This document shows positions 1,211 through 18,792 of a stretch of 64,000 nt of DNA, piece by piece. Position 1 is the stretch's first letter, and every line of letters begins with the position of its first letter. Origin of the DNA: Neobacillus sp. FSL H8-0543 (GTDB lineage Bacteria; Bacillota; Bacilli; Bacillales; Cytobacillaceae); assembly GCF_038592905.1 (NCBI RefSeq), contig NZ_CP151943.1, positions 2,431,001 through 2,495,000 on the forward strand, in the 5' to 3' direction. The notes beneath the pieces are model-generated. The model ran no database searches, was not told the DNA's origin, and saw only the letters and a list, made by a program, of their open reading frames with translations. The translations under genes were made by a program, and so were the position numbers.

Positions 1211-1251
1211 ATTATTACCTCGCAATTCTTACTTTTTGATATCATTCCCAA

Positions 1252-1282
1252 TAAAAAAATCCTCCTCTAAATCTAGAAGAGG
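1252..1282 (-). terminator. Terminator between the two Gfo/Idh genes
   Basis: An 8-bp stem with one G.U pair (arms 1261-1268 and 1275-1282) is followed on the - strand by a run of seven T. It would end transcripts of the gene at 1291-2277. Confidence 0.7.
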
Positions 1283-1290
1283 GAGCGTTG

Positions 1291-2277: not shown

Positions 2278-2335
2278 GGCTTATTCTCCTTCTAGGTCAA
2301 GACCCTAATTTCCATACCTAACACCACGCAGGCAT

Positions 2336-2371
2336 TTAAAGAAGCCTAGTCCAAACGGACTTGGCTTCTTT
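2336..2371 (-). terminator. Hairpin downstream of first GH65 gene
   Basis: A long stem (arms about 2341-2352 and 2357-2368, loop AAAC) lies between the GH65 gene and the Gfo/Idh pair. The T tail is weak on the - strand and somewhat better on the + strand, so termination may be partial. Confidence 0.5.
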
Positions 2372-2482
2372 GTTATTAAAAATTTGTAAGGTGCTCCCAA
2401 TTAAGTACAACAATAACATGGTGACCCATCGTGAGTCGAGAGGAAATGGAGGAGCTATCTTTCACAATTAGCCATCCTATCC

Positions 2483-4753: not shown

Positions 4754-4780
4754 GCCCTTCGCCTCGCTCACTATAGTAAA

Positions 4781-5452
4781 TTATTCTAAATTAAATTGTT
4801 TTAATATTTCATCAAGGTCTAATAGAGTTGTATCGCTCACTATATAATCAGCAGCCGACAAGTGTACCTTGTCGCCAATCCCAACGGAAAACATGCCTGC
4901 CTGATTAATCGCTTCAATTCCAGCAGCTGCATCTTCTAGTCCAACACATTCTCCATAAGGAATGTTTAGATAATCAGCTGCGGTTGTAAAGGTTTCCGGG
5001 TCTGGCTTTCCTTTCGTTACCTTCGCTGCATCAACAATATAATCTATGTAATGGGTAAGACCAAGCAGTTCCAATACCCTTTGGGCATTCTTGCTAGCAG
5101 ATCCAATCGCAATTTTAATATGATTCTCTTTCAATTTAGTAAAGAGTTCTTCAATACCAGGTAAAACATTTTCTGGTTTTATCGTCTTAATTAACTCCAC
5201 ATAATGGTCATTCTTTTGATAAGCAAGTTTCTCTTTTTCTTTCTGAGGCATATCTTTTAAAGAAGGGTTTAATGCCAGAATCCTTTCTAAGGAATCCATC
5301 CGGCTAATCCCTTTAAGCTGCTCATTAAACTGTCTATCAATGGTTATGCCGAGTTCCTCTGCAAGCTTTTTCCATGCCAAATAGTGAAATTCTGCCGTAT
5401 CTGTGATAACCCCATCTAAATCAAATATGAAGGCTTTCGGAGTCTGTTTCAT
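4781..5452 (-). CDS. pgmB: Beta-phosphoglucomutase (HAD superfamily)
   Basis: A 223-aa HAD-family enzyme converting beta-glucose 1-phosphate to glucose 6-phosphate. Motif I FDLDGVITDTAEFH (residues 9-22) has the nucleophile Asp and the second acid Asp. GSASKN is motif II, the lysine in TKGKPDPETF is motif III, and GLEDAAAGIEA is motif IV. The cap contains KGISRMDSLERIL, as in known beta-phosphoglucomutases. Its place directly before a GH65 gene supports the assignment: inverting phosphorylases release the beta-anomer that this enzyme needs. A terminator-like hairpin lies between it and the lacI-type gene, so it may have lower or separately controlled expression. Confidence 0.92.
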   Translation of the reverse strand: MKQTPKAFIFDLDGVITDTAEFHYLAWKKLAEELGITIDRQFNEQLKGISRMDSLERILALNPSLKDMPQKEKEKLAYQKNDHYVELIKTIKPENVLPGIEELFTKLKENHIKIAIGSASKNAQRVLELLGLTHYIDYIVDAAKVTKGKPDPETFTTAADYLNIPYGECVGLEDAAAGIEAINQAGMFSVGIGDKVHLSAADYIVSDTTLLDLDEILKQFNLE

Positions 5453-5485
5453 TGTCGTTTCCTTTCTTTCAAGAGATATTTCTTT

Positions 5486-5510
5486 ATAAAAAAGGGCCTA
5501 TTCTTGGCCC
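5486..5510 (-). terminator. Terminator-like hairpin after LacI gene, inside the operon
   Basis: Arms GGGCC (5494-5498) and GGCCC (5506-5510) with a 7-nt loop are followed on the - strand by six T and then ATA. It lies between the regulator and pgmB and would reduce readthrough into pgmB and the first GH65 gene. Confidence 0.65.
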
Positions 5511-5520
5511 ATTCATTCCA

Positions 5521-6546
5521 TTAATCTAAGCCTCGTGCTTCCCCAACCGTCCCGCGTTCAACTAACTGATAGGGAACAAATACATGTCTTGTATCCTGCT
5601 TATTCTCCATCAGATTCTTCAATAGAAGAGCGGATTGTCTTCCAATTTCCACAAAATCCTGGTGAATGGTAGTAAGTTTTGGTTCCGTATAACTGCTGAA
5701 AACCAAATTATCAAATCCAGTAATTGAAACATCCTCAGGAATTCTTAAACCTGCTTCTTTTACTGCCCGCATCACGCCATATGCCATTAGGTCACTAAAG
5801 CAAAGAAACGCCGTCGGACATTTCTCTTGCAAATAATTTTTAGCTAAAGCATAGGCTTTATCCTCAGAGAAATCGGCATGAAGAATATCTTCCTTATGAA
5901 TCTTCAGGTCATATTTTTTATATGCCTCCTTGACACCATTCATCCGGTCCATGTTTACATAGGTCTCTTCTGTTCCCGCCATTATTACAATTTTACGATG
6001 ATTGCGTTCCAATAAATAACAAGCAACCTCTTTACTTGCCTTTGCATTATTAATTGAAACACTACCAATTAATTTATTTGAATCCTCTTTTAAAATGTCT
6101 ATATAGACGACAGGAATATTCGTATTGATTAATTCTTTAAAATAAGGATCGTCTGTTCGAATTCCTTGTAAAACAGCGCCGCCAATGTTTCGTTCACTAC
6201 AAAATTGAGCATAGCTTTTTTGCCGTTGTTTTAGTGAATCTATTAAATACACAGATAATTCATGGTCATTTTCTTCTACTGCCTGATAGACACCCTTGAA
6301 AATATCGAATGCATTGGTGTCCTTTTCATTTTGATTAAAAACTCCGGACGAGATTAATCCAATCGTTCTCTGTTTCTTTGATGATAGATTTTTAGCCACC
6401 AAATTAGGCGAGTATTCTAGTTCCTTCGCTATTTCAAAAATTCGTTGTCGAGTTTTCACACTAACATCCGGGTAATTATTGAATGCTTTTGAAACGACAG
6501 CAATCGAAACACCTGCTTTTTTGGCAACATCTTTTATTGTAGCCAT
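5521..6546 (-). CDS. LacI-family transcriptional regulator
   Basis: A 341-aa repressor. The N-terminal LacI helix-turn-helix reads TIKDVAKKAGVSIAVVSKAF, followed by a hinge ending LVAKNLSSKK and a periplasmic-binding-like sugar domain with the usual C-terminal TTIHQDF block. GGAGGTGA lies 7 nt before the ATG. Encoded within the sugar operon, it is the natural candidate for the two AAAACGTTTT operators upstream of the first operon gene (12899). The effector is unknown; a disaccharide or phosphosugar of the pathway is likely. Confidence 0.9.
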   Translation of the reverse strand: MATIKDVAKKAGVSIAVVSKAFNNYPDVSVKTRQRIFEIAKELEYSPNLVAKNLSSKKQRTIGLISSGVFNQNEKDTNAFDIFKGVYQAVEENDHELSVYLIDSLKQRQKSYAQFCSERNIGGAVLQGIRTDDPYFKELINTNIPVVYIDILKEDSNKLIGSVSINNAKASKEVACYLLERNHRKIVIMAGTEETYVNMDRMNGVKEAYKKYDLKIHKEDILHADFSEDKAYALAKNYLQEKCPTAFLCFSDLMAYGVMRAVKEAGLRIPEDVSITGFDNLVFSSYTEPKLTTIHQDFVEIGRQSALLLKNLMENKQDTRHVFVPYQLVERGTVGEARGLD

Positions 6547-6615
6547 TGAACAATCACCTCCAATTAACCAATCATAAATTCAGTTATTAATGCCAACTAG
6601 TCTTTACAAAAAACA

Positions 6616-7314
6616 CTACATATTTTGTACTGCTGATTTCTTTTCTACTTTCAACGTAAATTTATAGAACGCATAGAAAGATAAAAACACACTGATTGTG
6701 CCTGAGAAAAAAGGTAACAAAAACCAAACCTTTGTACTTATATAGATGATTAAGATATTCAAAATTAGGATGATAAAGGACAATAACGGCCTTCCGAATG
6801 TAAGAAAAAATGAATTCTTAAACAAATCTCTCAAGCACATACGATAATGTGCAGTTAAGGAGAAGAAGTTCATGTTCATAACGAACAGAAGGAGTCCAAT
6901 AATCATGAATATGATCGTTAAAAGGTCATTTTCTTTACTAAAAAAATACAGGTCCATTATCCAAATAAGCCAAATGATTCCCCACCCCGCACCTGATAGT
7001 AGTGCTGTCTTGTAGCTATCTTTAAAATAGGAAAAATAAGTCTTGATAAGTGACGTTTGATCTTTTTCCAATAACCAATCGCGAGTTACTCCAAACAAAG
7101 CTACCGTACTAGGAAAAAGAAGGATAGGGAATAATAGTAAAGCAGGCACCATATGCATAATCATTGCACTTCTTGAATCATTAAAAAGAGAACTTAGAAC
7201 GATAATTGTTATAGGGAGATTTATTATAAACCATAAGATATTTACTATGGTGAAGCGCATAAACCATTCTGCTATCAGATGGATACCTCCCATTAATCCT
7301 GAAATATCCCGCAT
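6616..7314 (-). CDS. YesL/DUF624 family membrane protein
   Basis: A 232-aa protein with about five hydrophobic helices (around residues 17-40, 50-75, 100-122, 130-150 and 165-205) and the conserved family element FPSTVALFGVTRDWL. Proteins of this family (B. subtilis YesL as prototype) are regularly encoded with CUT1 ABC sugar importers. Their biochemical role is not established; an accessory role in uptake is often suggested. GGAGG lies 7 nt before the ATG. The gene follows the two permease genes on the same strand and is clearly part of their unit. Confidence 0.8.
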   Translation of the reverse strand: MRDISGLMGGIHLIAEWFMRFTIVNILWFIINLPITIIVLSSLFNDSRSAMIMHMVPALLLFPILLFPSTVALFGVTRDWLLEKDQTSLIKTYFSYFKDSYKTALLSGAGWGIIWLIWIMDLYFFSKENDLLTIIFMIIGLLLFVMNMNFFSLTAHYRMCLRDLFKNSFFLTFGRPLLSFIILILNILIIYISTKVWFLLPFFSGTISVFLSFYAFYKFTLKVEKKSAVQNM

Positions 7315-7391
7315 ATTGCTTCCTCCTTCATAATGACTACCCTTTCACCTGGGGATTTTTTCGGAGCAAGCAGCGAAAATAAGCCCACGTA

Positions 7392-8228
7392 CTATTTGAC
7401 TGCACCGTCCCCAATTCCTTTAATAATATGCTTTTGAGCAAGGATAAAGAAAATAACAATTGGGATCATCGTTAGTAGTAAACCAGCCATTGCCATATTC
7501 CACTGAATGGTAAATTCGCCAAAGAAATAGAAGGTTGATAGAGGAATCGTTCTTAAGTCCTTATCCGTCAATGTTAATGAAGGTAATAGATAGTCATTCC
7601 AAATGCTAATGATATTAATGATTAAAACCGTAACCGTTATTGGTTTTAAAATCGGGAAAATAATTCTCCAAAAGACACCGAACTTAGATGCACCGTCTAT
7701 CGTAGCTGCTTCTTCTAGCGAAACAGGGACAGATTTTATAAAACCATGATATAAGAAAACAGAAATACTTGAGTTGAAACCAACGTTCATAAAGATTAGC
7801 CCTTCACGGGTATTTAACATTGGGATGCCAAGCGTATCCATAATGTTCCCCATTAACTGCATCAAAGGCATCATGATGGTTTGAAACGGGATTAACATCG
7901 TTGCAATAAAGATCATAAAAATGACATTACTTAACTTATTGTTCGTTCTAACTAACATCCAAGCCGTCATGGAAGATAAAACAACTAGAAGGATGATTGA
8001 AATAATCGTTATATATAATGAGTTTCCAAGTGCATTAAGGAAGTTCATTTTTTCCATTGCACCAATGTAGTATTGAAATCCAAAATTTTCAGGCCAGGCA
8101 AGAACATTTTCATATAGTTCCTGGCGATTTTTAAATGAGTTCACAAAAATAATGTAGATTGGAGATAAGAAGAAAAGTGCAACTAATATAAGTAATACTT
8201 CTTTGAGAATTTTATTAGTTGTTCTCAT
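7392..8228 (-). CDS. CUT1 ABC sugar transporter permease (MalG-like)
   Basis: A 278-aa inner-membrane permease with six predicted helices. The EAA loop that docks the ATPase reads EEAATIDGASKFGVFWRIIFP, trimmed by one residue in some relatives. The ATG at 8228 has AGGTGG 7 nt upstream and overlaps the stop of the preceding permease gene, so the two are translationally coupled; a GTG three bases earlier is possible. It forms a heterodimer with the product of 8228-9112. No ATP-binding subunit gene occurs anywhere in the cluster, so a shared MsmX/MsmK-type ATPase encoded elsewhere is expected. Confidence 0.9.
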   Translation of the reverse strand: MRTTNKILKEVLLILVALFFLSPIYIIFVNSFKNRQELYENVLAWPENFGFQYYIGAMEKMNFLNALGNSLYITIISIILLVVLSSMTAWMLVRTNNKLSNVIFMIFIATMLIPFQTIMMPLMQLMGNIMDTLGIPMLNTREGLIFMNVGFNSSISVFLYHGFIKSVPVSLEEAATIDGASKFGVFWRIIFPILKPITVTVLIINIISIWNDYLLPSLTLTDKDLRTIPLSTFYFFGEFTIQWNMAMAGLLLTMIPIVIFFILAQKHIIKGIGDGAVK

Positions 8229-9112
8229 CACATTTCCACCTCTCGCTTTTTCGTTAGGTACACTTGTGTCAACGCAATCACTGCAACAATTAAGAAAAAG
8301 ACAATCGCTTTAGCCTGACCAAGTCCATAATTCGAATACCCAAAAATCTCATTATAAATATTCATTGCAAACATTTCTGTGGAATTAGCAGGGCCACCAC
8401 CCGTTAATGATAGGTTCGTATCGTAAATTTTAAATGCTGAAGAAAGGGTTAAAAATAGACTGATTGTAAAGGATGGCATTAAGAGAGGGAAAATAATTTT
8501 TCTTAACTTTTGCCAATTATTTGCTCCATCAATCTTAGATGCTTCCAATAATTCACCAGGAATCGCTTGAATACCTGCTATGTAAATTATCATAATGTAA
8601 CCGGCCATTTGCCAAGTAAATACAACAACTAAAGCATACAAGGAATAGTTAGGATCTAATAGCCAATTTAAAAAGATGCTGTCCAATCCTGTTATCTCCC
8701 CAATTAGGGTAAAAACATCAGAGAATACAAATTGCCAAATATAACCTAACATTAGACCACCAATTAAATAAGGCATAAATACCATCGTACGTGCTGTATT
8801 AGCTGTTCTGAGGTTGGATGTAACTAGAAGTGCAAATCCCAGTCCCACAATATTAACAGAAATAACTGCCAAGACGGTAAATTTAATCGTCAGCCATGCG
8901 GAATTTAGAAAGCGTTCATCATCAAATAATTTGGCAAAGTTCTCTAATCCAACAAAAACCATTGGGTTCGCTGCAATCCCATCCCAATCAAAAAAGGAAT
9001 AGTAGATTCCGATTAGAAATGGAATGATCACGACAACCGAAAAGATTATCACAAGCGGAGCTGTAAATAATGCATACCAACCCCAATTCTTTCTTTTTGT
9101 CACTTTAACCAC
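8228..9112 (-). CDS. CUT1 ABC sugar transporter permease (MalF-like)
   Basis: A 294-aa permease with six or seven helices and the EAA loop ELLEASKIDGANNWQKLRKI near residues 185-205. The N-terminus has a single helix (about 14-35) followed by the SFFDWDGI segment typical of bacillary MsmF/MalF-like proteins. The start is uncertain: GTG at 9112 with a weak AGAAAG upstream, or GTG at 9103. It overlaps the MalG-like gene and follows the binding-protein gene, from which it is separated by a strong hairpin. Confidence 0.88.
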   Translation of the reverse strand: MVKVTKRKNWGWYALFTAPLVIIFSVVVIIPFLIGIYYSFFDWDGIAANPMVFVGLENFAKLFDDERFLNSAWLTIKFTVLAVISVNIVGLGFALLVTSNLRTANTARTMVFMPYLIGGLMLGYIWQFVFSDVFTLIGEITGLDSIFLNWLLDPNYSLYALVVVFTWQMAGYIMIIYIAGIQAIPGELLEASKIDGANNWQKLRKIIFPLLMPSFTISLFLTLSSAFKIYDTNLSLTGGGPANSTEMFAMNIYNEIFGYSNYGLGQAKAIVFFLIVAVIALTQVYLTKKREVEM

Positions 9113-9147
9113 TTCTTTCTAGTAATTATCGTGGATAGTATTTACTA

Positions 9148-9171
9148 GACACGCCTAAATTCAGGCGTGTC
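9148..9171 (-). promoter_or_regulatory. Intercistronic stem-loop between binding-protein and permease genes
   Basis: A perfect 9-bp GC-rich stem (9148-9156 with 9163-9171, loop of 6) lies just after the binding-protein stop. On the coding strand it lacks a T run, so it reads as an mRNA-stabilising hairpin at the 3' end of the binding-protein message. Such hairpins keep binding protein in excess over permease. Confidence 0.55.
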
Positions 9172-9198
9172 CAGCCTTTTTTATTTTACAAAACTCTA

Positions 9199-10455
9199 TT
9201 ACTTCACTGCATTTTGCCAAGCAGCATCAAGTTTTTCGATTAATTCTTGACCAGTCATATCTTTACTTATGAAGAATTCCTGTGCAACTGGTGTGAAATC
9301 ATTTGTAACTACGTTTGCTGGGTAATAGTTTTGAGCCCAAGGAATGGTATTACCGCTGTTTGATGCTTCAAATACAGCTTGTGATAGTGGATCAAGTTCA
9401 CCTGGATCAATATTTGTCATAGCAGGAACGAATCCAAATTCTTCAACAATGTACTTTTTACCAAGATCACTGTTTAACATCCATTTTAAGAAGTCGTTCG
9501 CATTCTTAACTTCTTCTTTATCTTTTGTTCCGTTGATTGCCCAGTTATTACCTACACCAACTGATAATTTGTCATTTCCGTTAAGTGGGAATGGAAGCAT
9601 ACCAATTTCAAAACCTAAATCATAATCTTTAAGCATTCCATATGCCCAGTTACCTTGGTGAATCATAGCTGTTTTTCCAGATGCAAAATCACCAATTTCT
9701 TTATCGTAATTTACATCAAGTGGGTTTGCTGCATTAGCTTTAATCGCTTCAAAGAATTTCCCGAATTCTTGGAATTCCTTTGTATCTGCCATTGTTACCT
9801 TGCCTTCACTCAATTGGTCAATGAAGTCAAAATGATCTTTTTGTAATGCGAAGGGGTAGTTGCTAATATGTCCAATTAAGAAATAAGCTTCTTGTGAAAG
9901 GCCAAATGGATTAATGCCATCTGCTTTTAATTTTTCTAATGTACTTTTAAAAGATTGATAATCCTTTAAGTCTTCTGGTTTAACTAAATCCTTGTTGTAT
10001 ACCAAACCAAAACCTTCAACGCCATATGGAACACCTACAATTTTATCATCGTATTTTAATTCCATATTTGGAGCAATATTTTTTACATATTCTTCATTAC
10101 TCATATCATAAACATAAGAATTTAATTTTTCTGCTTCTTTAACGTGTTGAAGGCTGAAAATAGATGGGCCTTGTTTACTGTTCAATTTAATTTGTAGCTG
10201 TTGGAGATAGTCATCTCCTGTAGTTCCCCATATTTCTACTTCAACGCCAGTTTCTTTTGTGTATTCTTTAGCAAGTTTTTCTAACTGTTCAGAAATCTCA
10301 ACTTTACTTTGGAAAATGGTGATTTTTTTGTCCGAAGACTCCTTTGATCCTTCTTTACTTGATCCTTTTTCGCTGCTGCCGCCTGAACATGCTGTCAAAA
10401 CAAGCATGAAAGCAATCATTAACATGCTGACTAATGCTCTTTTCTTGAATTTCAT
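9199..10455 (-). CDS. Sugar ABC transporter substrate-binding lipoprotein
   Basis: A 418-aa extracellular sugar-binding lipoprotein. The signal peptide MKFKKRALVSMLMIAFMLVL leads to the lipobox LTAC, followed by a Ser/Gly/Lys-rich linker and a family-1 solute-binding fold with the GKTAMIHQGNWAYGML block typical of CUT1 binding proteins. I start it at the ATG at 10455, with AGGAGG 9 nt upstream; the frame can be opened to 10536, but the extra 27 residues precede the signal peptide and overlap the GH65 stop region. It delivers sugar to the two downstream permeases; the ligand is probably the disaccharide cleaved by one of the GH65 enzymes. Confidence 0.92.
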   Translation of the reverse strand: MKFKKRALVSMLMIAFMLVLTACSGGSSEKGSSKEGSKESSDKKITIFQSKVEISEQLEKLAKEYTKETGVEVEIWGTTGDDYLQQLQIKLNSKQGPSIFSLQHVKEAEKLNSYVYDMSNEEYVKNIAPNMELKYDDKIVGVPYGVEGFGLVYNKDLVKPEDLKDYQSFKSTLEKLKADGINPFGLSQEAYFLIGHISNYPFALQKDHFDFIDQLSEGKVTMADTKEFQEFGKFFEAIKANAANPLDVNYDKEIGDFASGKTAMIHQGNWAYGMLKDYDLGFEIGMLPFPLNGNDKLSVGVGNNWAINGTKDKEEVKNANDFLKWMLNSDLGKKYIVEEFGFVPAMTNIDPGELDPLSQAVFEASNSGNTIPWAQNYYPANVVTNDFTPVAQEFFISKDMTGQELIEKLDAAWQNAVK

Positions 10456-10532
10456 TTTATTGACCCTCCTATTGTTTTTTATATAGTAATAAAATGAAAG
10501 ATTCATTTTATAACTACCAGATTTAGTGTTGG

Positions 10533-12899
10533 TCAATTTGCTTGACCAATAGGGATTTCTATAGAATTATCGCAATCATATAATTGCTCATTAACTCTGA
10601 ACTCTATTCTTTCCTTGTTTTCCGCTTTGACAGAAAGTACATTATCAGTAACTGATAGTGTAATAGGCTGTCCTTGCCAATTAAGAGTAAACTTCAACCT
10701 ATGCCAGTTCTTAGGGAGCCTTGGGTTAATGGTGAGTTTTCCATCAACAAGCCTTATTCCGGCAAACCCAAAAACAACTGATTTCCATATCCCGCCGATT
10801 GATGCCGCATGAACCCCATCATCAGACGTATTCATCATTGGTCCTAAATCAATTGCACTTAACTTTTGGAACAATGAATAGGCCAAGTCGTATTCACCAA
10901 TATCATTAGCCAAAATGGCATGTGTAGCTAAACTTAAGCTAGAATCATGCAAGGTTCTAGGTTCATAGTAGTGAAAGTTGGCTCGTTTCACTGCTTCCGA
11001 GAAGCGTTTATGTTCAAATGTTTGTTCTAACAAATAAAGTAAGATTAAAATGTCCGCCTGTTTTGAAACTTGTATTTCGTTTATTTGGTCCGCATTATAA
11101 TCTCGATAAATACTTCTAATCTTTGTCTGCTTTTTGTATTTTTCTAAATCAATTTCCTTCAGCTGAAGATACGTTTTGTCTTGCGGTATGACAAAATCTT
11201 CTTCCCGAGGATTTGGGAGATAAAGTTTATCAGCTCTTGACTGCCAGAGTTGATAAGATTCGTGAACGCCCAATTTATCATCTAGCTCTCCTAATAGCTT
11301 TGGATTTTCTCTTCTTAATTTTTCGTAGTATTTCATCGCCAACTTCATATTGAAGAAGGCCATATAATTGGTAAATGCATTATCATCCACATGTTCCTTA
11401 TATTCATCAGGACCGACAACTTTATTGATATGATATTGCCCCGTCTCCTCGTTCCACTCTATCCGGGTTGCCCAGAATCTGGCTGTATCTAGGATCATTT
11501 CATACCCGTATTGGTCCATGAATTCTTCGTCACCCGTTACGTTATAGTACTGATAAACGGCAAAAGCTATATCAGATGTAATATGCTGCTCAATAAATCC
11601 GGACCAAATTTTCTGTTGTTTTCCAGTAACAATATCAACGTCCCCCCAGATTGGCGTAACCTCGCCATCTGTCGGCCAAGCAGCTTCCCAAGGATACATA
11701 GCGCCTTCATAGCCATTGTCTTTTGCCTTTTGACGTGCGCCTGATAATCCATGATATCGGTAGGTTAAGAGTGATTTTGCTACTTCCGGATTAGAATAAA
11801 TAAAGAATGGTAGAATAAAAATTTCTGTATCCCAGAATGAGTGTCCTTTATAGCCCTCTCCACTTAACGCCTTTGCACCAATTCCCATCCGGTCGTCGTG
11901 TGCCGGTGTCATAATGGTTAAGTGGTATAGAGAAAAGCGTAATGAGAGCAAATCAAAGGGATTGTCACTCTCAATTTCGAAATTATAAGTCTTCCAAACT
12001 TTGTTCTCCCAAGAGTTTCTATGAGTTTGAAAAAGATTATCATAGCCTTGTTTAAAACTATTCTGCAAATCTAGCAACGAAATGTCTCGGAGGCGTTGAA
12101 GACTATAATTCTCCTTACACCATACTTTATCCCGGCTAGTATGAACCGTCGTTAATTTTTCCATTTTCAACGTATCGTTTGGCTGAAGTACCATTTGATA
12201 GGTCAGCCATACTTTGCGGCGACCCATGTTCATTTCGGGAGTTACTGCCGATTCATCATCGTTAATCGTAATCTTGTGTATTGTGTTCATAACGATGTCA
12301 ATGTTCGATTCATTGGTTGTTTGAATTAGTTGAATATATTTCTTTTCAAAAATCCTTCTCTCTCCTTCAAGGAAATGCTGTGAACCAGAGTTGGATAGTT
12401 GCGCATTAATACCCGAATCGAAGGAGATTTCAACAGGATGTGTCAAGCTTTCAATTTCCATTTTCATTCCTACTAAATGCAAATTATCTAATGAAATAAA
12501 TCGTTTAAAATGGAAACGCAATTCTTTTCCGCGAGGAGAGGTCCAGTTAAAAGATCTTGTTAATTCGGCAGTTTTTAAATTTAATTGTTTGATGTAACCC
12601 TTGGTTTTACCGAATTCTAAACTGAATCTTTCTCCATCTATCCGGATATCTATTCTGGTAAAGTCCGCCAAGTTTGGCAATTCTGTTACTTCATTTTTCT
12701 CAGCTTTATTAAAAGTCCCATTTACAAACAGATTTCTCGTTTCTTTTATGTATGGTTCTTCTGTAGCTGACCGTAATCCCATATACCCATTTCCCAAGTA
12801 CATGATTGCTTCGCTTTTACCTAGTAAATCTGAAGAAAAATCTACATCTGCTATTATCCAATTCTTGTATTCTCCATTTCCTAATGAAAAATCCATCAT
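10533..12899 (-). CDS. Glycoside hydrolase family 65 disaccharide phosphorylase
   Basis: 788 aa and first gene of the operon. The core includes YLGNGYMGLRSATEEPY, ALSGEGYKGHSFWDTE, the catalytic-acid block VVGPDEYKEHVDDNAFTNYM and HDSSLSLATHA. The block resembles those of kojibiose/nigerose-type phosphorylases more than maltose phosphorylases; this is memory-based. It is only distantly similar to the GH65 protein at 2483-4753, with a different N-terminus and different residues after GPDEY, so the operon probably cleaves two linkages or two chain lengths. GAGG lies 8 nt before the ATG at 12899. The promoter, cre-like site and two operator palindromes lie directly upstream. Confidence 0.88.
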   Translation of the reverse strand: MMDFSLGNGEYKNWIIADVDFSSDLLGKSEAIMYLGNGYMGLRSATEEPYIKETRNLFVNGTFNKAEKNEVTELPNLADFTRIDIRIDGERFSLEFGKTKGYIKQLNLKTAELTRSFNWTSPRGKELRFHFKRFISLDNLHLVGMKMEIESLTHPVEISFDSGINAQLSNSGSQHFLEGERRIFEKKYIQLIQTTNESNIDIVMNTIHKITINDDESAVTPEMNMGRRKVWLTYQMVLQPNDTLKMEKLTTVHTSRDKVWCKENYSLQRLRDISLLDLQNSFKQGYDNLFQTHRNSWENKVWKTYNFEIESDNPFDLLSLRFSLYHLTIMTPAHDDRMGIGAKALSGEGYKGHSFWDTEIFILPFFIYSNPEVAKSLLTYRYHGLSGARQKAKDNGYEGAMYPWEAAWPTDGEVTPIWGDVDIVTGKQQKIWSGFIEQHITSDIAFAVYQYYNVTGDEEFMDQYGYEMILDTARFWATRIEWNEETGQYHINKVVGPDEYKEHVDDNAFTNYMAFFNMKLAMKYYEKLRRENPKLLGELDDKLGVHESYQLWQSRADKLYLPNPREEDFVIPQDKTYLQLKEIDLEKYKKQTKIRSIYRDYNADQINEIQVSKQADILILLYLLEQTFEHKRFSEAVKRANFHYYEPRTLHDSSLSLATHAILANDIGEYDLAYSLFQKLSAIDLGPMMNTSDDGVHAASIGGIWKSVVFGFAGIRLVDGKLTINPRLPKNWHRLKFTLNWQGQPITLSVTDNVLSVKAENKERIEFRVNEQLYDCDNSIEIPIGQAN

Positions 12900-13047: not shown

Positions 13048-13306
13048 CAAAGTTACCTTATAAAATCTGTGACAAAAGACTTTTTGTTTTTATTTTCCAA
13101 TAGAAAACGTTCTAAAGCTGTTATTACTCACTAATTGTTCACATTTACCATCTTCATGGTTAAGGTTAATAACTTCCTTTGGGATAGAGGGGTTATTCAC
13201 CACTTGTTTACCTATGGTACAGATTATCTTGCAAAAGTGATTTCATTTTCAAACTAAATCAATATATTTTATATTAGATTTACTAACGTAAATACTAATA
13301 TGATCT

Positions 13307-13403
13307 ATGAAGGACAAAACTCTCCTTCCAAATCGGCAAAATGTCCTTCATCCCAGTTATGAAGGACAAAGCTCTTCTTTCAAACCTGCAAAATGTCTTT
13401 CAT
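13307..13403. repeat. Two tandem 45-bp units with inverted termini
   Basis: Units at 13307-13351 and 13359-13403 are separated by 7 bp. Each starts ATGAAGGACA and ends in its inverse (TGTCCTTCAT exact in the first, TGTCTTTCAT in the second). The 25-bp middles are similar (CTCTTC/TTC..AAA..GCAAAA). Each can fold into a 10-bp hairpin. Confidence 0.8.
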
Positions 13404-13432: not shown

Positions 13433-13500
13433 AGTATAAAAAACCGCCTCTATTTATGGTAAGGTTCACCGCACCAATTATACCGGCGGTTTTTAGTACT
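13433..13500. repeat. Imperfect inverted repeat around the left rlmH-end copy
   Basis: Arms 13433-13448 and 13485-13500 match at 14 of 16 positions, each with a CCGCC/GGCGG end next to an A or T run. The 36 bp between them hold most of the duplicated rlmH end. It could be a recombinase recognition structure or a bidirectional terminator. Confidence 0.6.
13441..13467. mobile_element. Candidate outer attachment site (27-bp copy of rlmH 3' end)
   Basis: Identical over 27 bp to 18304-18330. On the - strand it encodes the last residues of RlmH (EPYHK, stop) plus 9 downstream bases, but no upstream rlmH sequence is present. Direct orientation with respect to rlmH marks the far end of an integrated segment. 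Confidence 0.75.
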
Positions 13501-13613
13501 GGAAAATAGTTAGTAACATTATTGGTTTAGAAAAAGCTAAAATTGCAGGTTATGGCTTAATTTAAAGAAATTTTTTAGTTCAAGAGGACCGTGAAACGCC
13601 ATCTAAGTCCTAA

Positions 13614-14525
13614 TTACTTAACCAGTCTATTTGTAATGTTTTCCATTTGATTTTGGATAATATTTAGAAATGTCTTCACAGATTTTGATGAATTATTCTT
13701 TGATACTACGTAGCCCAGAGGAATCTTTACTGGGCTATGATTTATCATGAAAGGTTTAGAGATGATCAATTTGTTCCACATAACTTGTCCATTTTTTAAA
13801 GCAGGATCTAGAATAAAGTTAATTGCTCTTCCTTCGGCAACTGTCTTTTCGATGATATCTGTGTTATTAGTAGCAAAAAGGATCTTATTAGGTGCATATT
13901 TATCGGAAAGCTCTTGAAAAAATTGTACTACATACTTGCTGTTATAAATAACTATGGGGTAATCTGACAAATCATATGGAGTAATGTATTCAAGGGAGGC
14001 TAATGGTGAATGTTCATTTACAAGGACATATACTTTTGAATCGAAAAGAACTTTAAATAACAAATCAACATGCTCTTTATGCATACTTTCATAAATATGA
14101 ATTAAACCTGCATGGATTTTACCTTGTTTGATTCCTTCGATAATCTCCTCTGTGGAATCTTCTTCTATATCTACTTTAATATGACGTCGGCTTTCGTGAA
14201 AAGACTGAAAGGCATCAAGTAATAGTGTATTGCATAGCCCAAATATAGCTGATATTTTTAATTCCTTTTGTTTCTTTCGGGCCTTTTCCTCAAATTCCTG
14301 AAGCTTTAAAACGATTTCTTTGGCATGTTGAATCATTTCTTTTCCCTCAACCGTTGGTTCTGTACCTAATCGTGTACGCTTGAAAAAATAGATTCCAAGC
14401 TCATCTTCAAGTGAAGCAATTGCCCTGCTTATTCCAGATTGAGTAACATGGAGATTTTGCGCTGCTGTGGTAATCGATCTTGTTTTTTCAACTTCAACGA
14501 TATATTTTAATTGCTCGATATTCAC
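13614..14525 (-). CDS. LysR-family transcriptional regulator
   Basis: A 304-aa regulator. The N-terminal winged helix-turn-helix reads NIEQLKYIVEVEKTRSITTAAQ, trimmed, followed by LHVTQSGISRAIASLEDELG and a two-lobed effector domain. The GTG at 14525 has GGAGG 6 nt upstream; the extra ten residues of the longer frame would lie over that site. It is transcribed divergently from the monooxygenase gene, the typical arrangement for a LysR activator of the neighbouring operon. Effector unknown. Confidence 0.88.
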   Translation of the reverse strand: MNIEQLKYIVEVEKTRSITTAAQNLHVTQSGISRAIASLEDELGIYFFKRTRLGTEPTVEGKEMIQHAKEIVLKLQEFEEKARKKQKELKISAIFGLCNTLLLDAFQSFHESRRHIKVDIEEDSTEEIIEGIKQGKIHAGLIHIYESMHKEHVDLLFKVLFDSKVYVLVNEHSPLASLEYITPYDLSDYPIVIYNSKYVVQFFQELSDKYAPNKILFATNNTDIIEKTVAEGRAINFILDPALKNGQVMWNKLIISKPFMINHSPVKIPLGYVVSKNNSSKSVKTFLNIIQNQMENITNRLVK

Positions 14526-14551
14526 CTTATACCTCCATCCATGACCAAAAC

Positions 14552-14625
14552 TCATGAAACCATGATTTATATTAATTTTACATGAGCCATTACTTTTTGT
14601 AAAATTATTTTTAGATTAGTCTAAA
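14552..14625. promoter_or_regulatory. Divergent control region with two palindromes
   Basis: Between the LysR and monooxygenase genes lie TCATG-AAAC-CATGA (14552-14565) and TTTAGA-TTAG-TCTAAA (14610-14625). Both are perfect interrupted palindromes. The second fits the T-N11-A pattern of LysR operators and overlaps a possible -10 region for the + strand operon. Confidence 0.45.
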
Positions 14626-14696
14626 GATTCTGGATAAAACACGTATCTGGAGGATGTAGGCCACCCTATATTAATAATAATGAAGGAGGAGAAGCA

Positions 14697-15944
14697 ATGA
14701 AATTCGGATTATTCTATGAGCATCAATTACCTAAACCATGGAAAGAGGGGGACGAGCATCAGCTTTTAAAAGATGCTCTAGATCAAATTGAACTGGCCGA
14801 TCAACTGGGTTATGACTACGTATGGGAGGTTGAGCATCACTTTCTTGAAGAGTACAGCCATTCTTCCGCACCAGAAGTGTTTCTCGCAGCAGCTTCACAG
14901 CGCACGAAAAACATTCGTATTGGACACGGAATTGTCCAGCTTCCAATGGAATTCAACCATCCAGCTCGTGTAGCAGAGCGGATTGCAACATTGGATTTAA
15001 TATCTGATGGCAGGGTTGAATTTGGAACAGGAGAAGGTTCAGCAGAAATTGAATTGGGAGGCTTTAATGTCGACCGTGCTGTCAAGCGCAGGGAATGGAG
15101 CGAAGCTCTCGATGCGATTACAAAAATGTTTGTTGAAACACCGTTTGCTGGTTATAATGGTGAATTTCTAAAAATGCCAGCACGTAACGTCCTTCCAAAG
15201 CCCATGCAAAAACCTCACCCGCCTTTATGGATGGCGTGCAGCCAGCATGAAACCATCACTTTGGCCGCATCAAAAGGAATTGGAGCGCTTTCCTTTGCCT
15301 TTATTGAGCCAGAGCAGGCTAAGGAATGGGTAGATGAATATTATAAGATTATTGCATCAGAACAATGTAATCCTGCCGGTTTTTCCGTCAATCCGAATGT
15401 CGCAATCGTTCTGCCGTTTAGTGTCCATGAAGATGAAAAAACAGCTGTTGAGCGGGGTGTCGAAGGGGCTAACTTTTTTGATTATTCATTAGGTCATTAT
15501 TATGCCTTTGGTAAACATCGTCCTGGTTATTCGGATATTTGGGATGAATTTAACAAAAACCAACTACAGGCCACTTCTAGTGCTTCTGAGGAAACAGGTC
15601 ATGAGACCATTTCTAGAAGAGGAGCAATCGGAACACCTGAGCAAGTGCGCGATATCCTCCGCCGATATGAGGAGGCCGGGGTTGACCAGGTGATTTTCAT
15701 CAGTCAGGCAGGGAAAAACCAACATGAACATATTTGTGAGGCACTGAATTTATTTGCCAAGGAAGTAATGCCGGAATTTAAAGATCGTGATGAGCAGTAT
15801 CAAGCACGTAAACAGCAAAAACTGGCCCTGGCAATGGAGCAAGCAATGGAACGCAAGAAACCAGCTCGTCACTCGGATGAGGATTATACAGTGGTCTCAC
15901 CTCCACGCCTGCCAATTACGGAATCAGTTCATGCCAAAAATTAG
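14697..15944 (+). CDS. LLM-class (luciferase-like) flavin-dependent monooxygenase
   Basis: A 415-aa TIM-barrel flavin monooxygenase that would use reduced FMN and O2. It starts MKFGLFYEHQLPKPW; further family blocks are YDYVWEVEHHFLEEYSHSSAP, the strand ending IRIGHGIVQLP, HPARVAERIATLDLISDGR, and the phosphate-binding region near IGTPEQVRDILRRYEEAG. A charged Gln/Lys-rich tail of about 45 residues follows the barrel. GGAGG precedes the ATG. Downstream genes encode an esterase and two flavin reductases, which fits a two-component oxygenase supplied with FMNH2. The substrate is not identifiable. Confidence 0.88.
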   Translation: MKFGLFYEHQLPKPWKEGDEHQLLKDALDQIELADQLGYDYVWEVEHHFLEEYSHSSAPEVFLAAASQRTKNIRIGHGIVQLPMEFNHPARVAERIATLDLISDGRVEFGTGEGSAEIELGGFNVDRAVKRREWSEALDAITKMFVETPFAGYNGEFLKMPARNVLPKPMQKPHPPLWMACSQHETITLAASKGIGALSFAFIEPEQAKEWVDEYYKIIASEQCNPAGFSVNPNVAIVLPFSVHEDEKTAVERGVEGANFFDYSLGHYYAFGKHRPGYSDIWDEFNKNQLQATSSASEETGHETISRRGAIGTPEQVRDILRRYEEAGVDQVIFISQAGKNQHEHICEALNLFAKEVMPEFKDRDEQYQARKQQKLALAMEQAMERKKPARHSDEDYTVVSPPRLPITESVHAKN

Positions 15945-16016
15945 AGAAGAATAAATTTCCAATATATTTTGCAAACGCTAATAAAAAGGAATGGATTCTA
16001 GGGAGGGGTATACCAG

Positions 16017-16934
16017 ATGGCAAGTAAAGAGAGTTTGGCTGTTAGACAGGGGTTACTAGAATGGGGAGCGCAGCAGGCACAAAAACAGCCTTCCATTGAG
16101 GAAATGAGAAAAAGCCTAGAAGACTTGATGAGTAGTACACCACTTGCGTCGGATGTTTCTATAAATAGAATTCAAATAGGAGAAACTCCAGCTGAATGGG
16201 TCACAACACCAACCGCTACCCAGAACCGCGTATTTCTTTTCCTTCATGGAGGCGGTTACTTTTTAGGCAGTTGTAAAGCCTACCGGGATTTGGCGTCACG
16301 TCTTTCCGAAGCAACAAATAGTCGGGTGCTCACAGTTGAGTATCGATTGGCCCCTGAGCATCAATACCCTGCCGCCATCGAGGATGCGGTTTCTGCGTAT
16401 CGCTGGCTTGTTTCTGATCAGGGGATTGATCCGTCCCAAATCATTATTGGAGGAGATTCCGCTGGTGGCGGGTTAACCTTGGCCACGTTATTATCTTTGA
16501 GAGATGCCGGTGACACACTTCCAGCCGCTGCTGTACTTCTTTCACCTTGGACTGATATGGAAGGAACGGGGAAATCAATGGAAACTAGGAAAGATGTAGA
16601 TCCATGGCTAAACCCTGACCAGAGCAGAGCAACACCCCCTATGTATATAGGGAATTTGGATCGGCGCCATCCATTGGTTTCTCCTATCTATGCAGATTTA
16701 CAGGGGCTGCCTCCAATGCTTGTTCATGTCGGTAATGATGAAATTTTACTGGACGATTCTGTTCGACTCGTAGAGAGAGCTGAAGTTGCAGGTGTGGATG
16801 TCACCTTCAAAATATTTGAAGACATGTGGCATGTGTTCCACGCATTTGCTGCAAGTGTCCCAGAAGCGCAAGAAGCGATCAATGAAATTGGAAACTATGT
16901 AACTAAAAAGCTCGAAGCTATTGAAATTACTTAA
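16017..16934 (+). CDS. Alpha/beta hydrolase, hormone-sensitive-lipase (family IV) esterase
   Basis: A 305-aa esterase with the oxyanion-hole motif LFLHGGGYFLGS (residues 73-84), nucleophile elbow GGDSAGGGL (Ser near 146), an Asp in VGNDEILLDD and the His in MWHVFH. GGGAGGGG lies before the ATG at 16017. Position right after a flavin monooxygenase suggests it hydrolyses the ester or lactone that oxygenase might make; this is inference. A UUCG-capped terminator follows the stop. Confidence 0.9.
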   Translation: MASKESLAVRQGLLEWGAQQAQKQPSIEEMRKSLEDLMSSTPLASDVSINRIQIGETPAEWVTTPTATQNRVFLFLHGGGYFLGSCKAYRDLASRLSEATNSRVLTVEYRLAPEHQYPAAIEDAVSAYRWLVSDQGIDPSQIIIGGDSAGGGLTLATLLSLRDAGDTLPAAAVLLSPWTDMEGTGKSMETRKDVDPWLNPDQSRATPPMYIGNLDRRHPLVSPIYADLQGLPPMLVHVGNDEILLDDSVRLVERAEVAGVDVTFKIFEDMWHVFHAFAASVPEAQEAINEIGNYVTKKLEAIEIT

Positions 16935-16977
16935 AAATTGCTTCCGACGAATTGAGGTTTCAAAAAACTATTCTAAG

Positions 16978-17002
16978 AAAGGCTGCTTCGGTAGCCTTTT
17001 TT
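16978..17002 (+). terminator. Terminator with UUCG tetraloop after the esterase gene
   Basis: A 6-bp stem (16981-16986 with 16991-16996) capped by TTCG is followed by six T. It lies 20 bp before the flavin reductase start, so that gene is made by readthrough or from its own promoter. Confidence 0.8.
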
Positions 17003-17022
17003 GTAGAAAAGGGGGAATCTTT

Positions 17023-17514
17023 GTGATTAAAACCGCGGATAAAATAAATCTCTTTAAACAAATCATGGGTCACTACCCAACAGGCGTTACCATTGTTACT
17101 ACTATGGATGAGAATGAAGAGCCTACCGGACTTACTGTAAATTCCTTTACCTCAGTGTCAATCGATCCATTGTTAGTATTGTGGTGCATCGATAAAAAAT
17201 CATCTTCATATGAAACGTTTTTAAAAGCTGGTCGCTTTGCTGTCCATACCCTATCTTCAGATCAAACGGAGGCTTGCTGGGCATTTGCCGGAAAGAGTTC
17301 TGACCGTTTTGTGGAAGTAAACTGGTACACATCGGAAAATAAATTACCAATCATAAAGGATTCCCTTGGAACTTTAGAATGCCTTACGGTTCAACAAATA
17401 GATGCCGGTGATCATATCATTCTAGTAGGTGAAGTAATAGAGTTATCAAAAAATGACAAGGAACCGTTACTTTTTTACAACAAAAAGGCAGGGACCATAC
17501 CAAAAGATTGGTAG
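17023..17514 (+). CDS. Flavin reductase (FMN-binding split-barrel family)
   Basis: 163 aa, HpaC/DIM6-like: reduces free FMN or FAD with NAD(P)H to feed a partner oxygenase. Family blocks are MGHYPTGVTIVTT, GLTVNSFTSVSIDPLLVLWC and GDHIILVGEVIEL. The GTG at 17023 has GGGGG 7 nt upstream. The open frame extends back to 16921, but that stretch contains the preceding terminator hairpin, so the longer version is rejected. It sits between the esterase and a second reductase gene, giving two candidate reductases for one oxygenase. Confidence 0.88.
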   Translation: MIKTADKINLFKQIMGHYPTGVTIVTTMDENEEPTGLTVNSFTSVSIDPLLVLWCIDKKSSSYETFLKAGRFAVHTLSSDQTEACWAFAGKSSDRFVEVNWYTSENKLPIIKDSLGTLECLTVQQIDAGDHIILVGEVIELSKNDKEPLLFYNKKAGTIPKDW

Positions 17515-17558
17515 TCAATAATGATGATTCGGAACCTTCTTAAAGAGGAGCTGCATGG

Positions 17559-18104
17559 ATGAAAATATTGGGGATTTCAGGTACGTTGATAGGAAGGAAA
17601 ACTCTAACAGTTATTGAGCAGGTGATAAATGAGATTAAAAGTTTTTCCCCTGAAGCGGACGTGGACATTCTAGATCTTAGAAAATTTAACATTCAATTTT
17701 GTGATGGACGCACAACCTCCGAATATACAGGAGATACGAAGGAAGTAATCGAACGAATTTCTTTAGCCGATGGCTATATTATAGGAACACCCATTTTTCA
17801 AGGTTCCTTCACTGGTGCATTAAAAAATTTATTAGATTTGGTTCCTCCTTCGGTATTTCAACACAAAGTTATGGGGTTCGTGGCTACTGGAGGAAATCCT
17901 CAGCATTACTTAGTGGTTGAAAATCAATTAAAACCAATAGCAGGATATTTTAAAGCCATTATAACTCCACATTTTATCTTTGCAAATAGCAGTCAATTTA
18001 ATAAGCAAAATGAAATTGTGGATTCAGAATTGAACGCGGAAATAAAGGAATTTTCTCAACAAGTAATATTTATGATGAGTAAATTGTCAATGGAATCAAA
18101 GTAA
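17559..18104 (+). CDS. NAD(P)H-dependent FMN reductase (flavodoxin-fold)
   Basis: A 181-aa flavodoxin-like reductase. The phosphate-binding loop is GISGTLIGRKT at the N-terminus, and the flavin-contacting GTPIFQGSFTGALKNLLDLVP block lies near residues 78-98. It belongs to the NADPH-dependent FMN reductase family (SsuE/ArsH relatives). AAAGAGGAG lies 8 nt before the ATG. Together with the gene at 17023-17514 it would supply reduced flavin to the monooxygenase. It is the last gene before the rlmH junction. Confidence 0.87.
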   Translation: MKILGISGTLIGRKTLTVIEQVINEIKSFSPEADVDILDLRKFNIQFCDGRTTSEYTGDTKEVIERISLADGYIIGTPIFQGSFTGALKNLLDLVPPSVFQHKVMGFVATGGNPQHYLVVENQLKPIAGYFKAIITPHFIFANSSQFNKQNEIVDSELNAEIKEFSQQVIFMMSKLSMESK

Positions 18105-18127
18105 CAGAGAACACAACTTGCCTAGTT

Positions 18128-18148
18128 GGGGCCACGACTCGTGACCCC
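18128..18148 (+). terminator. Hairpin ending the island operon
   Basis: A GGGG/CCCC-based stem with one internal mismatch (18128-18136 with 18140-18148) and an AT-rich, T-poor tail, 24 bp after the FMN reductase stop. Confidence 0.5.
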
Positions 18149-18260
18149 ATTCTTATATTATAAACAGATGCATACTAGTTTTAAGATCAAAAGATTGACC
18201 GAAAGTTGATTTCTTTATTTTACCGATTTCCTCCTGCCCTTGTCTGAATAAACGTAAAAC

Positions 18261-18290
18261 TGAAAACCTCGAAGAACTGATAGGTTTTCA
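18261..18290. repeat. Inverted repeat between FMN reductase gene and rlmH
   Basis: Perfect 9-bp arms TGAAAACCT / AGGTTTTCA with a 12-nt loop, lying just inside the island next to the rlmH repeat. It may serve as rlmH terminator, but no strong T run follows on the - strand. Confidence 0.45.
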
Positions 18291-18303
18291 GGATAATTAA
18301 TGT

Positions 18304-18330
18304 AAACCGCCTCTATTTATGGTAAGGTTC
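18304..18330. mobile_element. Candidate attachment site at rlmH 3' end
   Basis: The 27 bp cover the last six codons and stop of rlmH plus 9 bp downstream, and match 13441-13467 exactly. In staphylococci the SCC attB lies in the equivalent rlmH end, where the sequence also encodes a C-terminal YHK. Confidence 0.7.
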
Positions 18331-18792
18331 TCCCCGATTGATCCGGAAGGCTCGATAAATCTGCTCAATTAAAATCAACTTCATAAGTTGATGGGGGAAG
18401 GTCATTTTTGAAAAAGAGAGTTGTTCGTTTGATCTTTTTAATACTTCCTCGCTTAAGCCTAATGACCCGCCAATAATGAAGGCAATTTTGCTTTTTCCGT
18501 AGGTAGCGAGTTTATCCATAGTATCGGCTAGTTCTTCAGAGGATTGCATTTTGCCATTGATTGCAAGCGCAATTACATATGTATCCTGACTAATTTTCGC
18601 CAGTATCCTTTCGCCTTCCTTTTGTTTTACCTGAACCATTTCTAATTCACTGAGTTCTTCCGGAGCTTTTTCATCTGCCACTTCAATAACTTCAACCTTA
18701 GCATAAGCCGTTAATCTTTTTAAATATTCGTCTATTCCCAGTTTTAAATATTTCTCTTTTAATTTGCCAACCGTGACAATGGAGATATTCAC
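18313..18792 (-). CDS. rlmH: 23S rRNA (pseudouridine1915-N3)-methyltransferase
   Basis: A 159-aa SPOUT methyltransferase that methylates pseudouridine 1915 of 23S rRNA in assembled ribosomes. The SAM-binding knot includes [13 protein letters not shown]; the C-terminus is [14 protein letters not shown], as usual. AAGGAGG lies 16 nt before the ATG at 18792; a GTG two codons upstream (18798) is better spaced and also possible. The 3' end is a repeat boundary (see island). Upstream are a DnaA-box cluster and a small Cys-rich gene. Confidence 0.96.

Follow-up and report, generated by a model that had tools for sequence, protein, structure and literature searches.

What is the 4.9-kb block of DNA that lies against the 3' end of rlmH in Neobacillus sp. 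FSL H8-0543, and how might it have come there? We approached the question through a 64,000-nucleotide stretch of the chromosome (NZ_CP151943.1, positions 2,431,001 to 2,495,000), referred to here as the window, in which an earlier note made from the sequence had proposed a genomic island integrated at rlmH in the manner of the staphylococcal cassette chromosome (SCC). We are close to certain that the island is the product of an SCC-type integration, and we consider it about two in three likely that the 4863-bp block is an SCC-type cassette without a recombinase of its own, which moved as a passenger rather than surviving as a remnant.

The attachment site beside rlmH

The 27-bp sequence AAACCGCCTCTATTTATGGTAAGGTTC is present exactly at 13441-13467 and 18304-18330, and a search of the 5,295,870-bp genome, a single contig, returned these two places only, with up to three mismatches allowed. 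The exact repeat on which the island had been proposed was thus confirmed; further copies to the left of the island, which the earlier note had envisaged, do not occur at that threshold. The 23-bp core of the repeat was matched in none of 100 dinucleotide shuffles of the window. The right copy reads GAA CCT TAC CAT AAA TAG, the E-P-Y-H-K-stop that ends rlmH, and then nine bases, with the putative crossover dinucleotide at 18329-18330, and rlmH itself is intact. No further rlmH sequence accompanies the left copy, and rlmH has one match in the whole genome, in agreement with what had been noted before. Insertion at the rlmH 3' end with the gene restored, by which SCC elements are defined, is therefore also found at the island. 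The features that bear on the site are as follows, in window coordinates.

13441..13467, no strand assigned: left copy of the 27-bp direct repeat (exact match, genome-wide count, shuffle control)
18304..18330, no strand assigned: right copy, the last five rlmH codons and stop (EPYHK-stop) plus 9 bp
18313..18792, minus strand: rlmH, the integration target (159 aa; NCBIfam equivalog NF000985, 265 bits against a cut-off of 172)
13439..13494, minus strand: attL-like far-side attachment (att) site, 27-nt half-sites flanking a central GA in a 56-bp dyad
13468..18330, no strand assigned: putative element between the crossover points, 4863 bp as placed by the two GA centres

We compared the site with the sequence downstream of rlmH in 60 relatives. 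Three that offered no usable downstream sequence (G015, G016 and G046) and one in which rlmH was not matched (G054) were excluded, leaving 56 relatives and, with the window's genome, 57 genomes. The stretches read were 7-20 kb per relative and 38.8 kb for the window's genome, which by rlmH comes closest, among named relatives, to Neobacillus niacini and its allies. A second survey covered 80 named loci, almost all of them titled as Bacillaceae; the two surveys overlap and are not independent, at least 13 of the 80 loci sharing an exact 300-mer with a stretch of the genome set.

Read on the minus strand, the left site consists of two half-sites about a central GA (ACTAAAAACCGCCGGTATAATTGGTGCGGT-GA-ACCTTACCATAAATAGAGGCGGTTTTTTATAC; across the centre, ...TGCGGT-GA-ACCTTACC...), the element half lying at 13468-13494, the chromosome half at 13439-13465 and the GA appearing as TC on the plus strand at 13466-13467. 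The arms agree at 20 of the 27 half-site positions, compared to an average of 7.1 and a maximum of 18 at 20,000 random positions of the window. The relatives' internal copies (n = 99), those further downstream of rlmH, have a median of 13 dyad matches; the copies at rlmH itself (n = 55) have a median of 6, and none reaches 14. The best dyad centre over the 99 internal copies was the 2-nt GA with 1259 matches, the runner-up among the 1- and 2-nt centres tried giving 856. A position weight matrix (PWM) trained on 86 sites, all from relatives, scored the left copy at 70.7, equal to its best training site (70.7), and the rlmH copy at 36.5. The left site is preceded by GCGGT, which also precedes 16 of 100 internal copies, with ACGGT in 24 of 100. 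Because the dyad is centred on GA, the 27-bp repeat corresponds to GA plus one half-site, as predicted by integration through a large serine recombinase, and GA is given in an excerpt of PMC10581047 (citing Misiura 2013) as the central dinucleotide that the SCC recombinase CcrAB needs. Judged by its layout, the left copy is a recombination site of the full serine-recombinase type, and the island has the flanking direct repeats and the terminal dyad around a central GA that belong to SCC elements.

rlmH as an integration site in the relatives

At least one further core copy downstream of rlmH was found in 45 of the 57 genomes, amounting to 100 forward and 2 reverse copies. Sorted by 0/1/2 mismatches, the internal copies in 1.08 Mb numbered 57/29/13 forward and 0/0/2 reverse, compared to 0/0/12 on both strands of 3.25 Mb of Markov-shuffled sequence. 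Fourteen genomes have at least three internal sites, the maximum being seven. The internal centres lie outside open reading frames (ORFs) of at least 100 aa in 94 of 100 cases, compared to 723 of 2850 random positions, and 68 of the 100 copies still encode EPYHK-stop. Among the 80 named loci, 49 had at least one forward copy; downstream of rlmH there were 83 forward and 3 reverse copies, and none was found in 765 kb upstream. On this pattern of copies rlmH is an SCC-type hotspot among the relatives, which adds genus-wide support to the earlier proposal of integration at the gene end with rlmH restored. The five island genes gave no tblastn match at E<=1e-20 downstream of rlmH in the 56 relatives; inheritance of the same genes at the same place, which the earlier note had set against its own proposal, was thus not seen.

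Away from rlmH, fragments of the rlmH C-terminus were observed in 7 of 61 genomes of the genus (L133-L139, in G047, G034, G035, G056, G060, G019 and G044, respectively), and four of these loci (L133, L134, L136 and L138) have at least two att-core matches, as if they were second landing sites. Att-like copies also lie about 390 kb from rlmH in G013 (L257), far from it in G039 (L258) and on another contig in G034 (L259).

We defined att-bounded segments with up to 2 mismatches in the core, which gave 100 segments with a median of 3.3 kb; a stricter definition (at most 1 mismatch) gave 87 segments in 42 genomes. Longer segments were missed because of the length of the stretches scanned. Ccr-like sequence overlaps four of the 100 segments (two in G049, one in G023 and one in G052) and none of the other 96, a segment of a relative being counted as recombinase-free when it had no PF07508 match and no tblastn match to four Ccr-like queries. 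This count of four favours our reading, since the recombinases of G009, G010 and G027 fall outside the 100 segments.

For recurrence, the 98 segments longer than 400 bp were compared all against all (the two of at most 400 bp were dropped); 96 pairs had any match, and breakpoints were examined in 14 chosen pairs. Whole segments proved common to different genomes end to end, some of them in other array positions. The clearest case is a 2.45-kb segment found at array position 2 in Bacillus sp. PAMC26568 (L062) and at position 3 in G018 and G049, approximately 90% identical among the three, compared to 70-78% for their rlmH genes. Its three pairwise alignments begin 3-4 nt before one att centre and end 17-28 nt past the next, and within 1.5 kb outside it only the att repeats align. 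The G018 copy contains a gene (L116:14345-14830) matching PF14526 Cass2, an effector-binding protein named by Pfam as integron-associated.

G028 and G049 share a gluconate segment (gnd, gntP and gntK over cut-off, with a GntR-family gene) at 98% identity, compared to 83% for their rlmH genes, and the first segments of G039 and G042 are 96% identical (rlmH 84%). Close relatives also share segments, at 96-99% among G036, G037 and G043 (rlmH 93-96%) and at 98% between G007 and G045 (rlmH 95%). The other recurrent segments inspected hold a phosphotransferase system with a GH1 glycosidase, an S-methylmethionine permease with a homocysteine methyltransferase, BioY with acyl-CoA enzymes and, in two further cases, ABC-transporter and regulator sets. 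In seven recurrent segments, 26 of 27 ORFs were scanned with NCBIfam or Pfam, the only set in which other recombinase types were sought, and no recombinase family matched. Diverged species share intact segments that lack Ccr-like sequence, which suggests that a cassette can do without ccr in cis.

Passenger, remnant or other origin

The island contains no recombinase among its ORFs of at least 100 aa, as the earlier note had observed, and so differs from SCC elements, which carry ccr gene(s). The ccr-type recombinase which that note thought might lie elsewhere in the genome did not appear: PF07508 gave no match, so no large serine recombinase was seen, and the PF00239 matches were a resolvase-type ORF of 217 aa and a 63-aa fragment. 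In six of the genomes surveyed (G009, G010, G023, G027, G049 and G052) the stretch read downstream of rlmH contains large serine recombinases or pieces of such genes. Four are open genes, adjoining rlmH in G009, G010 and G023 and about 10 kb off in G027, and match NCBIfam CcrB best at 321-436 bits (cut-off 900); a fifth recombinase, on another contig in G060, scored 349 bits, and the partial genes of G009 and G052 scored 95 and 229 bits. None of the seven proteins of relatives reached an NCBIfam CcrA/B/C cut-off (best 436 against 900); by their sequences these enzymes are related to Ccr and are not members by the NCBIfam cut-off rule. Ccr-like queries also matched 14 of the 80 named loci. The Ccr-like recombinases near rlmH in relatives, together with the dyad and its GA centre, bear out the SCC likeness that had been drawn from the repeat.

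An antisense arrangement was observed at several of these genes. The check covered 18 loci, four of which yielded no such ORF; of the 14 Ccr-like ORFs listed for which the att centre could be placed, 13 ran antisense across that centre into rlmH (G009, G010, G023, G052, L015, L028, L039, L042, L043, L057, L068, L073 and L080). Host rlmH sequence supplies the last 3-48 residues of these ORFs, which in a circle would be different.

We propose that a Ccr-type large serine recombinase, supplied in trans by another element, would have joined a circle with a dyad attP to attB at the rlmH 3' end, strand exchange taking place at the central GA. rlmH would have stayed intact because the right half-site of the element encodes EPYHK-stop, and the left half-site would have ended up at the far end, where it completes the dyad at 13439-13494. 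We favor passage in trans, one of the options left by the earlier note, over the others because att-to-att segments without Ccr-like sequence recur between species as units. What the putative passenger carries, and which parts of it are found elsewhere, is listed below.

13614..14555, minus strand: LysR-family regulator (PF03466, PF00126)
14697..15944, plus strand: luciferase-like monooxygenase (LLM), flavin-dependent (PF00296, 183 bits)
16017..16934, plus strand: alpha/beta-hydrolase esterase (PF07859)
17023..17514, plus strand: short flavin reductase of the partner reductase type (PF01613; GTG start picked by eye)
17559..18104, plus strand: NADPH-dependent FMN reductase (PF03358; MsuE/SsuE-like, below cut-off)
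13630..17553, no strand assigned: block shared with contig C114 of G001, 88% identical
18227..18330, minus strand: rlmH-side element end, similar to what follows an att copy of G049 that lies 19.3 kb from its rlmH

Four of the five island genes are on the plus strand and rlmH is on the minus strand. Taken together, the predicted products form one gene set that would fit the oxidation of a ketone-like substrate, by the monooxygenase and two candidate reductases, followed by ester hydrolysis. The best NCBIfam match of the esterase is the hormone-sensitive-lipase GESAG subfamily NF058651 (304 bits, below the cut-off of 430), and HsaB/FerA/HpaC-type models match the short flavin reductase below cut-off. 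Solved structures place the LLM protein no closer than the luciferase superfamily and the esterase near EstD11-type enzymes. G001 has an 89% identical LLM protein, and at least 7836 proteins, of the 7999 candidates scored, match at E<=1e-100; the LLM family being common, this distribution says little about the island. A terminator-like hairpin was seen by eye at 16978-17003, between the esterase and flavin reductase genes, and the last two genes may therefore be a separate unit.

A less probable account, and a rather unlikely one, is that the original insertion was of a complete SCC-like element with ccr, from which a later deletion removed the recombinase region, so that both ends and a single operon survive. 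Broken recombinase pieces lie inside the rlmH array of G049, and it is an element end in G049, there preceding different genes, that the right end of the island resembles (84% over 81 bp, 18265-18343, including the core and 13 bp of rlmH). Beyond the core this alignment scores 109.5, compared to at most 68.5 in 200 shuffles; approximately 25 bp of the match occurs repeatedly in G049, and no window-side protein matches what follows the G049 att copy. A hairpin of terminator type, though a weak one (-12 kcal/mol, z only -1.4), is found in the same end at about 18260-18291. The cargo, too, looks joined from two pieces, the homology with G001 ending at 17553 and leaving the FMN reductase gene outside the common block. 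The G001 copy lies on a different contig from rlmH, between a GntR/aminotransferase-domain gene and a YkuD transpeptidase gene, with no att site near it in the 40 kb read, which argues that this part of the cargo moved by other routes too. Since G049 shares the end without the proteins and G001 shares part of the cargo without att sites, the ends and the cargo of the island seem, from these alignments, to assort separately. The deletion account is opposed by the lack of any recombinase piece among the island ORFs of at least 100 aa and by the intact recurrence of segments without Ccr-like sequence between diverged species. The remnant that the earlier note had offered as an option is thus possible, ranked below a passenger moved in trans.

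Several observations weigh against the passenger itself. The decay of a once ccr-bearing element would give the same picture at this locus, where no recombinase was seen in the island ORFs or, by PF07508, in the genome. The cargo part 13630-17553 sits outside any att-bounded place in G001. Only 43 of the relatives' 99 internal copies reach 14 dyad matches, 12 of the 57 genomes have no internal copy in the stretch read, and the recombinases of G009, G010 and G027 are in stretches without an internal copy. Among the recurrent segments, the G028/G049 gluconate alignment breaks at the att centre on the left and 435-738 nt short of it on the right, G013/G032 also break short of att, alignments are patchy in G023/G029, G017/G018 and G014/G034, and some recurrences come from close relatives whose alignments cross att sites (G036, G037 and G043). 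Finally, the exact empty site with a single 27-bp copy, which the earlier note had looked to close relatives for, was not found among the matches listed when the left-flank DNA was searched in 61 genomes; the matches listed were att-like copies and a dispersed 52-bp repeat. The contig of the nearest relative, G046 (87% in walRK), stops 258 bp past rlmH, and the att copy of G046 is on a 4.3-kb contig, the remaining sequence of which has no match to the window's region. Beside the left site, window 13306-13403 was observed to be an intergenic repeat around ATGAAGGACAAA...GTCCTTCAT with many copies across the genus, elsewhere often tandem at a 52-bp spacing.

The earlier note had also allowed that the island might be a single block within a composite to which the sugar operon on its left also belongs, and this we now consider improbable. 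Six of the ten ORFs of the sugar region (window 86-12899), including both GH65-type genes, have no match at E<=1e-20 downstream of rlmH in the 56 relatives, as a composite would lead one to expect. Beyond position 20.4 kb of the stretch read in the window's own genome, several ORFs that look, by eye only, like a peptide-transport operon match the rlmH neighbourhoods of G044 and G020 at 67-91%; the DNA between rlmH and that point would therefore be extra. The remaining four sugar-region ORFs, however, each have a single match, at 27-30% identity for three of them and at 64%, in G029, for the fourth (window 86-1225), and no third att site was found in the 38.8 kb, the next-best PWM score being -7.4 compared to 70.7 for the left copy (the left dyad read backwards scored 19.7 in the same scan). 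With no further att site leftward within 38.8 kb, the att sites give no sign that the element extends to the sugar operon. The two GH65-type genes (window 2483-4771 and 10533-12899) are distinct, 33% identical, and have relatives elsewhere in other genomes.

That the repeat is a duplicated or shared bidirectional terminator, with no integration, is scarcely credible: a strong hairpin does form at the left site, with U-runs whichever strand is read (-26.1 / -27.7 kcal/mol, z -5.4 / -4.5), but the scattered terminator feared in the earlier note would not be limited to two copies in the genome, and the relatives' copies lie downstream of rlmH in one orientation, most of them encoding an EPYHK-stop that a terminator does not need; we rejected this account on copy number and orientation. 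A tyrosine-integrase island has as little in its favor. Gene-end repeats are common for such islands, and PF00589 has 12 matches in the genome, 11 over cut-off, but none is inside or beside the island or within 270 kb of rlmH (the nearest is about 277 kb away), the recombinases near rlmH in relatives are Ccr-like, and the dyad arms match up to a 2-nt centre, which is the serine-recombinase layout, although a dyad alone cannot fix the spacer. Integrase distance and dyad layout led us to reject it.

Relation to known cassettes

With SCC-type att sites on both sides and no ccr, in a genome where no large serine recombinase was seen, the island resembles the arginine catabolic mobile element (ACME) or the pseudo-SCC and composite SCC of staphylococci, which are likewise att-flanked at the rlmH (orfX) end. 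ACME carries metabolic operons and is not known to have a ccr of its own. The island differs from these in its host, of another bacterial family, in its size of 4.9 kb, in holding one gene set and in the lack of a helper recombinase in the genome. An excerpt of PMC7029739 describes ACME as mobilised by the ccrAB of SCCmec.

SCC-like islands at rlmH in Bacillaceae are already published, and the island is a variant of these. The available text of PMC10061031 reports such islands in Bacillus, Niallia, Planococcus and others, with the same target, large serine recombinases, rlmH-end repeats and tandem composites. As described there, those elements were found via primase-helicase pairs and have one or two large serine recombinases each, and none was seen in the island or in 96 of our 100 segments. 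B. cereus and Geobacillus vulcani are named in a list of SCC-like carriers (PMC10581047, in excerpt). The Enterococcus cassette chromosome (ECC) shares the rlmH 3' end as target and has dyad att sites of about 50 bp with variable cargo; the ECC described in the text available from PMC6222049 is 32 kb with ccrAB, compared to a single gene set without ccr in the island. Among the open-access papers listed in literature searches, none dealt with whole-operon arrays that lack a recombinase at the rlmH of Bacillaceae, which is not proof of novelty.

Chromosomal integron arrays offer a further likeness, as recombinase-free cassettes in one direction beside a fixed site. They depend on a tyrosine recombinase and consist mostly of promoterless single genes between folded single-strand sites; the rlmH arrays differ in their serine-type dyad sites and regulated operons. 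As a tentative proposal, to which we would give somewhat less than even odds, the rlmH locus of Bacillaceae may hold an integron-like array of recombinase-free whole-operon cassettes, swapped between species and genera by occasional trans-acting Ccr-type serine recombinases, each cassette bringing an rlmH C-terminus and an att dyad that could also serve as a two-way terminator and so insulate its operon.

SCC elements have been known chiefly as large vehicles of methicillin resistance, equipped with a recombinase of their own. In the soil-type Bacillaceae surveyed here, the same site architecture bounds small units, mostly of one operon, that lack a large serine recombinase; as many as seven internal sites are stacked at rlmH, and a few of the units have hardly changed between diverged species. 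Taken singly, the island is a modest find; the interest lies in the apparent array of exchangeable operon cassettes. If movement in trans is true, the array would be the equivalent, for whole operons and with a serine recombinase, of the cassette arrays of integrons, and would provide a non-staphylococcal system in which to study the movement and evolution of cassettes such as ACME.

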